From positions 1-64,000 of the forward strand of contig WLRQ01000008.1 in the NCBI GenBank assembly GCA_009697815.1: a stretch of DNA of 64,000 nucleotides, in the 5' to 3' direction. Under the pieces are notes generated by a model. It was not told the origin of the DNA. It saw only the letters and a list, made by a program, of their open reading frames with translations, and did no database searches. Position 1 is the first letter of the stretch. Each line of letters begins with the position of its first letter. Shown here piece after piece: positions 24,521-28,258 of this stretch. This DNA comes from Actinomycetota bacterium. GTDB lineage: Bacteria > Actinomycetota > Actinomycetes > S36-B12 > CAIYMF01. The position numbers were made by a program, and so were the translations under genes.

Positions 24521-26005
24521 CTACGAGTCCGGCTCGACGACCGTGTCCGACGTGCCGCGCTCCCGCAATGCCGCTGCACGCGCTTCGAGATCGTGGAAGA
24601 AGTCGCTCTCGACGATCTCTCCTAGGTCGCGTTCGACCTTCTTGTGGTCGATCACGACGCTGAGCTTGGTTAGTTGCTCACGCAGTTTGCGCTCGCGGGC
24701 AACGACTTCGGCACCCATCCGCTGGAAGGCCCGCGCGAGCGTGCCTACCTCATCGCCCCGTGCAGCCGCGTGATCGAGGGACGTCGGTTCGAAGCGATTC
24801 TCCGACAGGGCTGTCGCCGCGTGTGTGAGGTCCTGGACCGGGCGGACGATCCGGCGGCTTGCCAGGAGACCGATCCCCAAGCCCAGCAGCAGCACCACCG
24901 TTTCGAGGATGATTTGACGTGTCGCCAGGCTGGTCCCTGCCTGGGTCAATTCGGCTGCGGGTACAACCGAGACCAGGATCCAGTCGGTGGCCGACACTTT
25001 CGAGACGTCGACCGACCATGGTTCGAGGTGGCCATCCCGGAGCGCGGCGTCGGCCTGCACGTGCGCGATCGGGCCCTGCGTCTTGGGAACTGCCGCGACG
25101 GCCGCTGAAGTGAGCGACTTACCCCAGGCGGTGTCGACCAAGGAGGTCAGCGATCTGTTCTCGGGCGCGACGAGCACCTTGCCGTCCCGATCGAGCACGA
25201 AGAAGAACCCCGTGTCGCTGAAGACGATCTTGGCTAGGGTCGAGCCCAGTGATTTCTTGTCGGCCTCGAGGCGAGCGGCGGCCTCGGTCGCGATGTCGTC
25301 GAGGTAGACCCCCGTGCCGATCACCCATTTCCAAGGTGCGAAGTAGTAGATGAAGCTGATCTTGTCGGCAGGGACCGTCGCGCCCGCTCTGGTGCCCACG
25401 TAGTCGACGTAGCCCTCGCCCGGCCCGAGCGCCACTTTCGCAAAGTCCTGGAAGAACAGCTTCCCGTTCTTGTCCTTGTAGTTCCAGCAGTCGCCCCGAA
25501 AAGTCGGGTTCGGCTCGACGATCGAGACCATGGCCGGGGTGAAGGCGAAGAAGTAGTTGTCGCTTCCGTAGCGGTAGTCATAGACCAACTTCTCGCCAGC
25601 GGCATGTGCGGCCGCGTCGCTGATCTCGCCTCGTTGGGTCGACAGGCGGAGCCGGTCGAGTCCGGCGACCAGCGCCATCGTGAGGTTCTTCAACTCGATC
25701 TTGCGAGTGGCAAGTGCCTCCACGCGGTAGCGCTCGACGTCTGCGTTCGCCTGATCGACCAGAAGCCGCGTGGACTCGTGGGCGTTGGCCGTGGTCTGTC
25801 GTGAGTTGGTGGTCTCGTTCTGGCCTACCGAGACCGCGGAAAAGATGGCGGTCGCAACGGCGCTCGATGCCAAGAGCACCCCAAGGAGCATGGCAAGTCG
25901 TGCGCTGAGTGAGGCGAAACGCAGGTTCGGTAGGAGCGGGCCGCGTCCCGACGCATCAGGTGCCGCGGGAGTCCCGGTCTGGGTCGGTGGTGTGGGTGTT
26001 GTCAT
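24521..26005 (-). CDS. membrane sensor: TM - tandem Cache-like domains - TM - HAMP - short coiled-coil tail, no kinase/MA/GGDEF output
   Basis: YFFAFTPAMVSIVEPNPTFRGDCWNYKDKNGKLFFQDFAKVA...GEGYVDYVGT...APWKWVIGTGVYLDDI (Cache), IVFSDTGFFFVLDRDGKVLVAPE (second), then TM, RRIVRPVQDLTHAATALSENRFEP HAMP, tail ending at 494 aa. Confidence 0.82.
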   Translation of the reverse strand: MTTPTPPTQTGTPAAPDASGRGPLLPNLRFASLSARLAMLLGVLLASSAVATAIFSAVSVGQNETTNSRQTTANAHESTRLLVDQANADVERYRVEALATRKIELKNLTMALVAGLDRLRLSTQRGEISDAAAHAAGEKLVYDYRYGSDNYFFAFTPAMVSIVEPNPTFRGDCWNYKDKNGKLFFQDFAKVALGPGEGYVDYVGTRAGATVPADKISFIYYFAPWKWVIGTGVYLDDIATEAAARLEADKKSLGSTLAKIVFSDTGFFFVLDRDGKVLVAPENRSLTSLVDTAWGKSLTSAAVAAVPKTQGPIAHVQADAALRDGHLEPWSVDVSKVSATDWILVSVVPAAELTQAGTSLATRQIILETVVLLLGLGIGLLASRRIVRPVQDLTHAATALSENRFEPTSLDHAAARGDEVGTLARAFQRMGAEVVARERKLREQLTKLSVVIDHKKVERDLGEIVESDFFHDLEARAAALRERGTSDTVVEPDS

Positions 26006-27186
26006 GAGCCAGTGAGCCTGCGTCGAATCTCATCTGCGACGAGGCGCTGCGCGCGGCTGGCCGTTGTCAGGGTGGGGGCGAACTGCATGAATCCGTGGAA
26101 GGTGCCCGCGAAATTCACGAGTTCGGACTCGTTGCCCGCTGCCCTCAGCATGTCGGCGTAGACCGTGCCGTCATCGCGGGTCGGGTCGACGTCTGCGGTG
26201 ATGATGAGCGAGGGGGGTGCGTCTGACAGGTCGGGATTGTGGATGGGTGACGAAGTCCACTCATGGTCCGGGGCGGCGTAGTGCGCGTAGAACCACGCCA
26301 TATCGGCTGCCGACACCACGGGGCCGTCGGGGAACTGTGTGTACGTCGGTAGTGCCATCGTGGTGTCCAGCGCGGGGTAGATCAGGACCATCAGCGAGAC
26401 CCGTGCCCACCCTTCACGGTGCGCGGTGAACGCGACGGCATTCGCGAGCGCACCACCGACGGAATCCCCCATCACGGCAAGTCGCCCGGTGTCCAGACCG
26501 AGCGAACGGTGGTGCTCGATCAGCCACCTCAACGACTCGACCATGTCGTCGTACGCGGCCGGGAAAGGATCTTCCGGTGCCAGTCGGTAGCCGACACTCG
26601 CCACGGCACAGCCGGAGAGTTCGGCCATCGAATGGCACAGCGAGTCATAGGACTCGATGGATCCTGTGACGTACCCGCCGCCGTGTGCGAAAAGGACCAG
26701 GGGCAGCGGGTCGGCGCCACCGCCCTCGGGGCGGTAGATCCGCACGGAGACGCCGTGGGTGATCAGGTGGTCCTCCGCGCCCTCAAGTTCTACTGCTTGG
26801 GCATGCGGGTCCTCCGAGATGAGGTCGGCAAGAACCCCTGTGATGTCCTGGCGAACGCGTCGACGCCCTGACACCAAACTCACCCAGGATCTGTCCTCGG
26901 GGGTGGTTTCCCTGCAGCGGACGAATCCCGCGCGCTGCAGTTCTTCCATCAGTTGTTCGACGACAGCGAGGTCGAGTCGCGTTGCGGCGGCGATCACCGT
27001 GGTGGGGCTCTTCCCGAAGCGGCTCAAGTGAGCGATGATCGCGACGCTCTCGTCGTCAAGGGCCCAGGTGCCCGAGAGCATGAGGCCATCGCGCCGGGCC
27101 CCGGCCACGGTAAGGCTCGACACGTTTGTCACTCCCGCGCGGCGAAGCCGTTCGATCAGGCCGACGGATTCGGGGTCGAGGGGCAC
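26002..27186 (-). CDS. HSL-type alpha/beta hydrolase with embedded winged-helix-like segment
   Basis: GTG near 27186 (PLDPESVGLIERLRRAG...); MarR/wHTH-like DDESVAIIAHLSRFGKSPTTVIAAATRLDLAVVEQLMEELQRAGFV; then HGGGYVTGS, GDSVGG, HGFMQF catalytic motifs. 4-nt ATGA overlap with the next gene. ORF-track start 28080 runs antisense over minD and is rejected. Confidence 0.8.
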   Translation of the reverse strand: MPLDPESVGLIERLRRAGVTNVSSLTVAGARRDGLMLSGTWALDDESVAIIAHLSRFGKSPTTVIAAATRLDLAVVEQLMEELQRAGFVRCRETTPEDRSWVSLVSGRRRVRQDITGVLADLISEDPHAQAVELEGAEDHLITHGVSVRIYRPEGGGADPLPLVLFAHGGGYVTGSIESYDSLCHSMAELSGCAVASVGYRLAPEDPFPAAYDDMVESLRWLIEHHRSLGLDTGRLAVMGDSVGGALANAVAFTAHREGWARVSLMVLIYPALDTTMALPTYTQFPDGPVVSAADMAWFYAHYAAPDHEWTSSPIHNPDLSDAPPSLIITADVDPTRDDGTVYADMLRAAGNESELVNFAGTFHGFMQFAPTLTTASRAQRLVADEIRRRLTGS

Positions 27187-27285
27187 CTCCGGATGATCGC
27201 ACAGGAACTGCCTGGTGTTGAGAGCGCTGACTGGCCCACTTGCGATGCTACGGTCGCAGCCAGTGCAGCGAGCGTGGGAGGAAGT

Positions 27286-28050
27286 ATGGCCAAGACCATC
27301 TCGGTGCACTCCTTCCGCGGAGGTACTGGCAAGAGCAACGTCGTTGCCAACCTCGGTGCCCAACTCGCGGCCTCCGGCGCCCGCGTCGCTGTGATCGACA
27401 CCGATATCCAGAGCCCCGGTGTCCACGTGCTGTTCGGCCTCGACAACACCGACGGACCCACGATCAACGATTTCCTCTGGGAACGGTCCACGATCGAGGA
27501 TGTCGCGATCGATGTTGGTCACCGGGTGACGGCACATCAGGAGTTGGCCGGCGCCGGCGCACTGTTCCTCGTCCGCGGCAGTGTGGTGGCCAGTGACATC
27601 GCCCGCGTTCTTCACGAGGGCTACGACGTGGGCCGACTCAAGGACGGCTTCCGGGATCTCACCACCGAACTCAACCTCGACTACCTGCTCATCGACACCC
27701 ACCCGGGTCTCAATGAGGAAACCCTCCTGTCGATCATGATCAGTGACGTCCTGCTGCTGATCATGCGTCCTGATCGCCAGGACTTCGAGGGAACTGCGGT
27801 CACGGTCGGGGTCGCCCGGCGCCTGAAGATCCCGGACCTCCTGCTGGTGCTCAACAAGGTCCCTATGGGCGTGGATCGCGACGACCTGCGCGCCCAGCTC
27901 GACGACAGTTACGGCGCGGAGACTGTTGCCCTGCTCCCGTTGTCGGAGGATGTCGCCATCAACGCCTCGGGCGACTTGTTCTCGCTGACGACGCCCGAGC
28001 ACGAGTGGTCGGCCCAGATCCGGGCCATCGCCCATCGCATGAGGTCCTAG
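27286..28050 (+). CDS. MinD/ParA-family ATPase
   Basis: ATG at 27286 after GGGAGGAAG; MAKTISVHSFRGGTGKSNVVANLGAQLAASGARVAVIDTDIQSPGVHVLFGL...DYLLIDTHPGLNEET. Confidence 0.9.
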   Translation: MAKTISVHSFRGGTGKSNVVANLGAQLAASGARVAVIDTDIQSPGVHVLFGLDNTDGPTINDFLWERSTIEDVAIDVGHRVTAHQELAGAGALFLVRGSVVASDIARVLHEGYDVGRLKDGFRDLTTELNLDYLLIDTHPGLNEETLLSIMISDVLLLIMRPDRQDFEGTAVTVGVARRLKIPDLLLVLNKVPMGVDRDDLRAQLDDSYGAETVALLPLSEDVAINASGDLFSLTTPEHEWSAQIRAIAHRMRS

Positions 28051-28099: not shown

Positions 28100-28176
28100 T
28101 CCCGGGTTGCTCTGCTGGCAGGGGCGACCGCACTTTGAATGCGGGTACGACGCAGGTTCGATTCCTGCCCCGGGAG
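28100..28176 (+). tRNA. tRNA-Gln(TTG)
   Basis: TCCCGGG/CCCGGGA acceptor, CCGCA-CTTTGAA-TGCGG anticodon arm, GCAGG-TTCGATT-CCTGC T arm; directly upstream of glmU. Slightly long at 77 nt. Confidence 0.82.
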
Positions 28177-28258
28177 CACCAGCCGCTGGCGTTCGGGCGA
28201 TGAGGGCGCGGTATCGTGATCGCGCCGTGCCCGCAGCCACCAGGAGGATTTCGCCCTC

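Follow-up and report, generated by a model that had tools for sequence, protein, structure and literature searches.

What does a membrane sensor signal to when its gene ends without a recognizable output domain? The question is raised by a 64,000-nucleotide stretch of Actinomycetota DNA (GenBank assembly GCA_009697815.1, contig WLRQ01000008.1, positions 1 to 64,000; hereafter the window), where a Cache-HAMP sensor gene overlaps a hydrolase gene and a gene for a MinD-like ATPase diverges from both. An earlier note, made from the sequence alone, had suggested that the short tail of the sensor signals directly to the ATPase, with the hydrolase as effector. Comparison across loci and genomes gives good support to tail and ATPase as partners, and the window is probably one instance of a modular signalling system, in which varied sensors share a tail of ~45 residues as transmitter to a dedicated MinD-like ATPase.

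A shared tail and its ATPase

The two partners occupy the following positions in the window.

24521..26005, minus strand: Cache-HAMP membrane sensor of 494 amino acids, with transmembrane segment 1, Cache region, transmembrane segment 2, HAMP and terminal tail (open reading frame, Pfam, AlphaFold2)
25145..25819, minus strand: dCache_2-type sensor region, residues 63-287 (Pfam 1e-33, model)
24707..24862, minus strand: HAMP of the sensor, residues 382-433 (Pfam 1e-8)
24563..24697, minus strand: conserved C-terminal tail module, residues 437-481, candidate ATPase-docking transmitter (alignment, co-occurrence)
27286..28050, plus strand: MinD-like ATPase of 254 amino acids (Pfam/NCBIfam, AlphaFold2, Foldseek)
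27313..27339, plus strand: ATPase Walker A motif FRGGTGKSN, residues 10-18, with Arg at the ParA/MinD signature-Lys position (alignment)

In addition to dCache_2 and HAMP, Pfam matches sCache_2 in the sensor, and the Cache region of its AlphaFold2 model (pLDDT 82) is closest to 4k08 and 5g4y. Neither Pfam nor NCBIfam finds an output domain beyond HAMP in the window sensor, as the earlier note had supposed; nor was a full output domain found in sensor orthologues, where the tail is again the last element. Among 21 aligned sensors from ATPase loci, some just 18-20% identical to the window sensor, the single conserved block past HAMP is the last ~45 residues, with consensus RExxL..L.V.ID..K....EITESDxF..L...A..LR. 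The tail was aligned in 21-25 proteins, profile A3 was built from the alignment, and ~100 tail proteins were listed. Within the 49-column tail alignment the basic residues R3 and R47 are conserved.

Tail carriers are diverse. They include dCache/sCache-HAMP, 4HB-HAMP-GAF, dCache-HAMP-GAF, HAMP-GAF and sCache-HAMP-PAS proteins, but also PAS-PAS, response-regulator receiver, redoxin and cyclic nucleotide (cNMP)-binding proteins, and some have an enzyme domain ahead of the tail (CHASE2-Ser/Thr kinase-tail). Across the gene sets covered, the tail sits at the C-terminus, usually with 3-40 residues remaining; exceptions are rare (L198, with 306 residues beyond the tail, and L065, an apparent frameshift artefact). 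Because the module terminates so many unrelated input domains, it behaves like a transmitter. The most unusual carriers lie at L179:3732-4319 (redoxin domain) and L192:376-2661 (CHASE2-Ser/Thr kinase). The tail end, AxxLR, resembles the motif DQAxxLR, but this likeness was dropped, as that motif, located on FlhG, acts on FlhF and not on the ATPase (PMC12826062).

The partnership rests chiefly on searches of whole genomes, made independently with the tail profile and with the ATPase query and blind to location. Both occur in the identical 26 of 99 relatives and neither in the other 73 (Fisher 2e-24), and likewise in the identical 29 of 194 cyanobacteria, with neither in the remaining 165 (Fisher 4e-35); across 397 genomes of the window's phylum, the ATPase is found in 9, the tail in 9 and both in 8 (Fisher 2e-13, window genome excluded), all p-values that overstate the association, since the genomes share ancestry and are not independent, though presence varies even within a single genus. 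A tail gene lies within three genes of the ATPase at 57 of 77 ATPase loci, and the two genes overlap by 4 nucleotides in Rhizobium jaguaris. Thus the linkage whose absence would have spoken against the earlier note is conserved, and its suggestion that the tail works with the ATPase is strongly supported in the sense of a partnership: across genomes the two co-occur almost perfectly, and they are repeatedly adjacent.

Adjacency of this kind could also arise by hitch-hiking, with tail and ATPase traveling together on islands without functional coupling. The distribution is indeed patchy even within one genus: in that of the window, both are present in 4 of 11 genomes and neither in 7. On the other hand, 25 of 51 cyanobacterial tails, and 17 of 45 among the relatives, lie far off or on contigs other than that of the ATPase, and presence still matches; for 17 of the 18 genomes whose ATPase locus had no tail nearby, one was found elsewhere in the genome. 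Because 9 cyanobacterial genomes that have both carry no tail within 10 kb of the ATPase (the nearest being 0.66-2.0 Mb away on shared contigs), functional coupling is favoured over travel as one island. With so many tails far from any ATPase, plain linkage was rejected, and we regard hitch-hiking as very improbable.

The ATPase family

Pfam assigns the window ATPase to AAA_31/ParA/CbiA (1e-14) in the ParA/MinD clan. Its AlphaFold2 model is confident (pLDDT 92.6), and Foldseek matches it to the MinD/ParA fold (1hyq, 7e-17, TM 0.80; 4rz3, FlhG, 6e-15; also 4v02); as modelled, the fold is nearest to MinD and FlhG. The family itself has no solved structure, the nearest by sequence profile being archaeal MinD 1hyq (E=1.5e-17). 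The protein falls well short of the equivalog cut-off for MinD proper (TIGR01968; 43.6 bits against 212.9). MinD proper ends in an amphipathic membrane-targeting sequence; the model of the window ATPase terminates in a helix, residues 240-253.

The earlier note's Walker A motif, FRGGTGKSN, is present in the window ATPase, and it departs from the deviant Walker A consensus KGGxxK[S/T] by lacking the signature Lys. RGGTGKS, with the catalytic Lys kept, is present in 65 of 66 members, within HSFRGGTGKSN or HSYRGGTGKSN (65 of 66), and R11 is invariant among 43 aligned members; this constancy is partly due to the search, HSFRGG having been one of two patterns in the GTDB scan. A divergent member found by profile, which we read as Streptomyces-like, still carries HRGGTGKSS. 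Degenerate paralogues that have lost the P-loop Lys occur at L111:7491-8587 (fused to a winged helix-turn-helix, or wHTH) and L123:6950-7708, each beside an intact copy.

A scan of GTDB genome contigs returned at least 573 relatives; the best 80 come from records titled Actinomycetota, Chloroflexi and cyanobacteria, with one Bacillota, and plasmid records extend the ATPase to Deinococcus and R. jaguaris. If the pair does form a new signalling class (see below), its spread takes in Actinomycetota, Chloroflexota, Cyanobacteriota and Deinococcota as well as at least one alphaproteobacterium. Five metagenome-assembled genome records titled Bifidobacterium breve (L078, L093, L096, L098 and L103) look mislabelled, their ATPase loci resembling those of unrelated-looking actinobacterial metagenome-assembled genomes. 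The window genome also has two tandem ATPase paralogues (65-66%) on C30 (L037:8384-9996), both with intact Walker A and with a second HAMP-tail protein nearby; a third tail sensor stands alone on C34.

The hydrolase and other neighbors

The remaining features of the window concern the hydrolase and the divergent arrangement.

26002..27186, minus strand: HSL/Abhydrolase_3-type hydrolase with extra wHTH (Pfam, HGGG and GDSVG, triad in L066)
26815..27069, minus strand: wHTH-like region of the hydrolase, residues 40-124 (hhalign)
27187..27285, no strand: divergent intergenic region of 99 bp, presumed shared promoter region (flanking start coordinates)

All three reading frames, of sensor, hydrolase and ATPase, are open at these positions. 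The layout described earlier holds: the hydrolase stop and the sensor start both fall in 26002-26005 (tcat on the plus strand, ATGA on the minus), and the hydrolase starts at a GTG (27186) and the ATPase at an ATG (27286), with 99 bp in between. ARAGORN calls a tRNA-His at 27353-27453, inside the ATPase gene and probably a false positive; a tRNA-Gln lies downstream of that gene at 28100-28177.

The hydrolase is a member of Abhydrolase_3 (Pfam 5e-62, residues 164-367), with HGGG at 168-171 and GDSVG, of GDSxG type, at 240-244. It has this fold and both motifs in common with HSL-type lipases of the LipP1 family, but differs from them in ~85 extra wHTH-like residues N-terminal to the catalytic core and in its score (254 bits against a cut-off of 350); the wHTH appears to have been inserted into an HSL frame. 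Weak alone (Pfam MarR_2, E=0.1), the wHTH fares better in profile-profile comparison: hhalign aligns it with the wHTH of alpha-acetolactate (AAL)-decarboxylase-like neighbors of the ATPase at probability 92-94 (E 7e-7 to 1e-7) and with stand-alone wHTH proteins at 63-90, the remaining third group of ATPase neighbors reaching 15-16; among the five generic wHTH controls, a single one scored as high as 70 and the rest at most 16. The module is thus probably related to the wHTH modules found beside the ATPase elsewhere, to judge by these profiles. Low E-values for the hydrolase from an iterated wHTH profile were left unused, as the profile had drifted (a generic wHTH entered in round 1 and a second in the next).

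Were these simply ordinary neighbors, an unrelated lipase, a degenerate chemoreceptor and an orphan ParA, the hydrolase would be expected to behave much as it does, for it is not conserved at other ATPase loci. Against this stand a tail conserved across phyla that tracks the ATPase, and the recurrence of the triad in one other actinomycetotal species (L066; ATPase, hydrolase and sensor 73, 55 and 55% identical) between unrelated flanking genes. Because of that recurrence and the genome-wide co-occurrence of ATPase and tail, the grouping is far beyond chance, and we consider ordinary neighbors scarcely credible.

As a general third member, by contrast, the hydrolase was rejected. Only L066, G071 and G098 yielded full-length wHTH-hydrolase homologues, adjacent to the ATPase in L066 alone, and the gene is absent at nearly all other ATPase loci, including the tandem-ATPase locus of the window genome. 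Of the triad proposed as a unit, then, the conserved pair is ATPase plus tail while the remainder varies; the proposed effector role does not extend to most loci, though the wHTH makes a role as alternative partner plausible. The hydrolase is best regarded as a lineage-specific wHTH-bearing partner, plausibly one of several alternatives.

Those alternatives can be glimpsed at other loci (genes in the fetched loci were called with a simple program of our own, and starts are approximate). A family of small wHTH proteins adjoins the ATPase, with a wHTH gene adjacent at up to 29 of 77 loci, an upper estimate owing to the drifted profile. A wHTH of the same kind is C-terminal on ABC-cNMP proteins and on AAL-decarboxylase-like enzymes, and in a Leptolyngbyaceae record (L111) is fused to the ATPase paralogue without P-loop Lys; the stand-alone, ABC-cNMP and AAL-decarboxylase-like groups are firmly linked to one another (E 1e-14 to 4e-8), that of the hydrolase less firmly. 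The ABC-cNMP proteins (L037:13687-15933 and relatives) combine a half-ABC transporter with a fused cNMP-binding domain and wHTH; 10 aligned members have no P-loop Lys at Walker A and mostly no acidic residues at Walker B, so that from sequence they look like pseudo-ABC receptors. The AAL-decarboxylase-like enzymes (L106:8882-9886, L069:5692-6702, L049:14440-15441) belong to a cluster present at 9 of 80 loci, with three members tested against Pfam. MFS-like, GNAT-like, ABC-cNMP and HATPase-GNAT genes recur at part of the ATPase loci, mostly actinobacterial. In Nostocales, the ATPase is found within NHLM peptide-export loci, along with a Cache-HAMP-tail protein, and in Deinococcus and R. jaguaris the pair adjoins SpoIIE phosphatase genes, with annotated STAS genes too in Deinococcus. 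At the R. jaguaris locus (L186, pRCCGE525c 358092-376847), the tail protein that overlaps the ATPase has 145 amino acids and lies near a Cache-HAMP-SpoIIE protein; the flanks resemble, by eye, STAS/anti-sigma and type VI secretion genes.

Recurrent wHTH, ABC-cNMP, MFS-like and GNAT-like genes invite the reading that tail and ATPase share a pathway without contact, a third component (wHTH protein, pseudo-ABC/cNMP protein or export machine) touching both. None of these occurs at more than part of the loci, whereas the ATPase-tail pair is near-universal, and the two genes of the pair overlap in R. jaguaris; we think such an intermediary improbable. The main rival is positioning rather than signalling: the ATPase would be a ParA-like positioner and the tail a cargo handle, spacing sensors along membrane or nucleoid or bringing them to a pole, as with PpfA/TlpT or McdA/McdB. 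In its favor, positioning is what most ParA/MinD ATPases do, PpfA has in TlpT a partner of chemoreceptor type (PMC7993993, PMC9178275), and proteins that are otherwise unrelated share the tail. Against it, tail proteins that are soluble (cNMP, receiver, redoxin) would make odd cargo, and the neighbors include regulatory or export genes, such as those for SpoIIE, STAS, wHTH proteins, cyclases and NHLM transporters. Positioning thus seems unlikely, if less so than an intermediary.

Proposed mechanism and known systems

ParA/MinD ATPases are activated by short, basic terminal peptides carried on unrelated domains (PMC7993993); from this precedent we infer binding of the tail to the ATPase, with regulation of the ATPase dimer. 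Ligand binding in the Cache region would be relayed through HAMP to the tail, which would bind the dimer of the ATP-bound ATPase at the membrane, altering its hydrolysis or recruitment in much the manner of the short basic peptides of MinE, ParB or PomX. The state of the ATPase may then be read by wHTH-bearing partners (the hydrolase in the window; stand-alone wHTH proteins, pseudo-ABC/cNMP proteins and AAL-decarboxylase-like enzymes elsewhere) and, at other loci, by export or partner-switch genes.

Besides the shared ancestry of the genomes, several observations weigh against signalling from tail to ATPase. Of the two discordant genomes in the phylum sample, one each way, G451 has an ATPase that is divergent and lacks a credible tail, and G282 (93% complete) has a receiver-domain tail protein with just weak ATPase matches; G498 has the ATPase with no tail found. 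The tail is of low confidence in the sensor monomer model (pLDDT 55-70), and the activating peptides known so far sit at the N-terminus. ATPase loci seldom include the window hydrolase, and a generic wHTH, L158, scored near the hydrolase wHTH in hhalign.

The known roles of ParA/MinD ATPases lie mainly in positioning and division. A MinD-like ATPase as shared receiver would, if true, add an output class to bacterial signalling and explain Cache-HAMP, GAF and PAS proteins that seemingly have no output. Whether this is a new class of signal transduction, with the ATPase as common receiver of a dedicated C-terminal transmitter peptide on membrane and soluble sensors, seems to us evenly poised; its being comparable in role to transmitter domains that feed kinases or cyclases has about equal chances either way. 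A 45-residue peptide and a 254-residue soluble ATPase make a testable pair, and one that offers a handle on the control of the cyanobacterial peptide-export loci where it occurs. No description of the pairing was found in the open-access literature; an earlier account elsewhere is possible.

Several known systems bear comparison. Cache-HAMP receptors (methyl-accepting chemotaxis proteins, histidine kinases, cyclases, SpoIIE phosphatases) have an input half identical in kind to that of the window sensor, but the latter and its orthologues have only the tail, with no kinase, MA, GGDEF, cyclase or phosphatase output. Cyanobacterial NHLM/NHLP peptide-export loci (TIGR03796, TIGR03797, TIGR03896), absent from the window, contain the pair in Nostocales; the 2010 NHLM transporter paper does not mention the ATPase (PMC2887384). 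BcsQ is likewise MinD-like and tied to a secretion machine, although the window ATPase matches its profile weakly (35 bits against a cut-off of 158), and we know of no tail-bearing sensors for it. Replacement of the signature Lys has precedent in BcsQ itself, which has Arg there (RGGVGTT) as does the window ATPase, and in McdA, which has Ser (PMC9178275). The ParA/MinD ATPases that work with activators (MinD-MinE, Soj-Spo0J, PomZ-PomX, PpfA-TlpT, McdA-McdB) have the MinD/FlhG fold, P-loop Lys and Asp38/Asp40 in common with the window ATPase; their activators (PMC7993993) and the tail are alike dedicated partners, short terminal peptides with conserved basic residues grafted on unrelated domains. 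The window system departs from them in its Arg for the signature Lys, in its regulatory and export neighbors, and in a tail that is C-terminal, not N-terminal, and carried by sensory proteins of many types.

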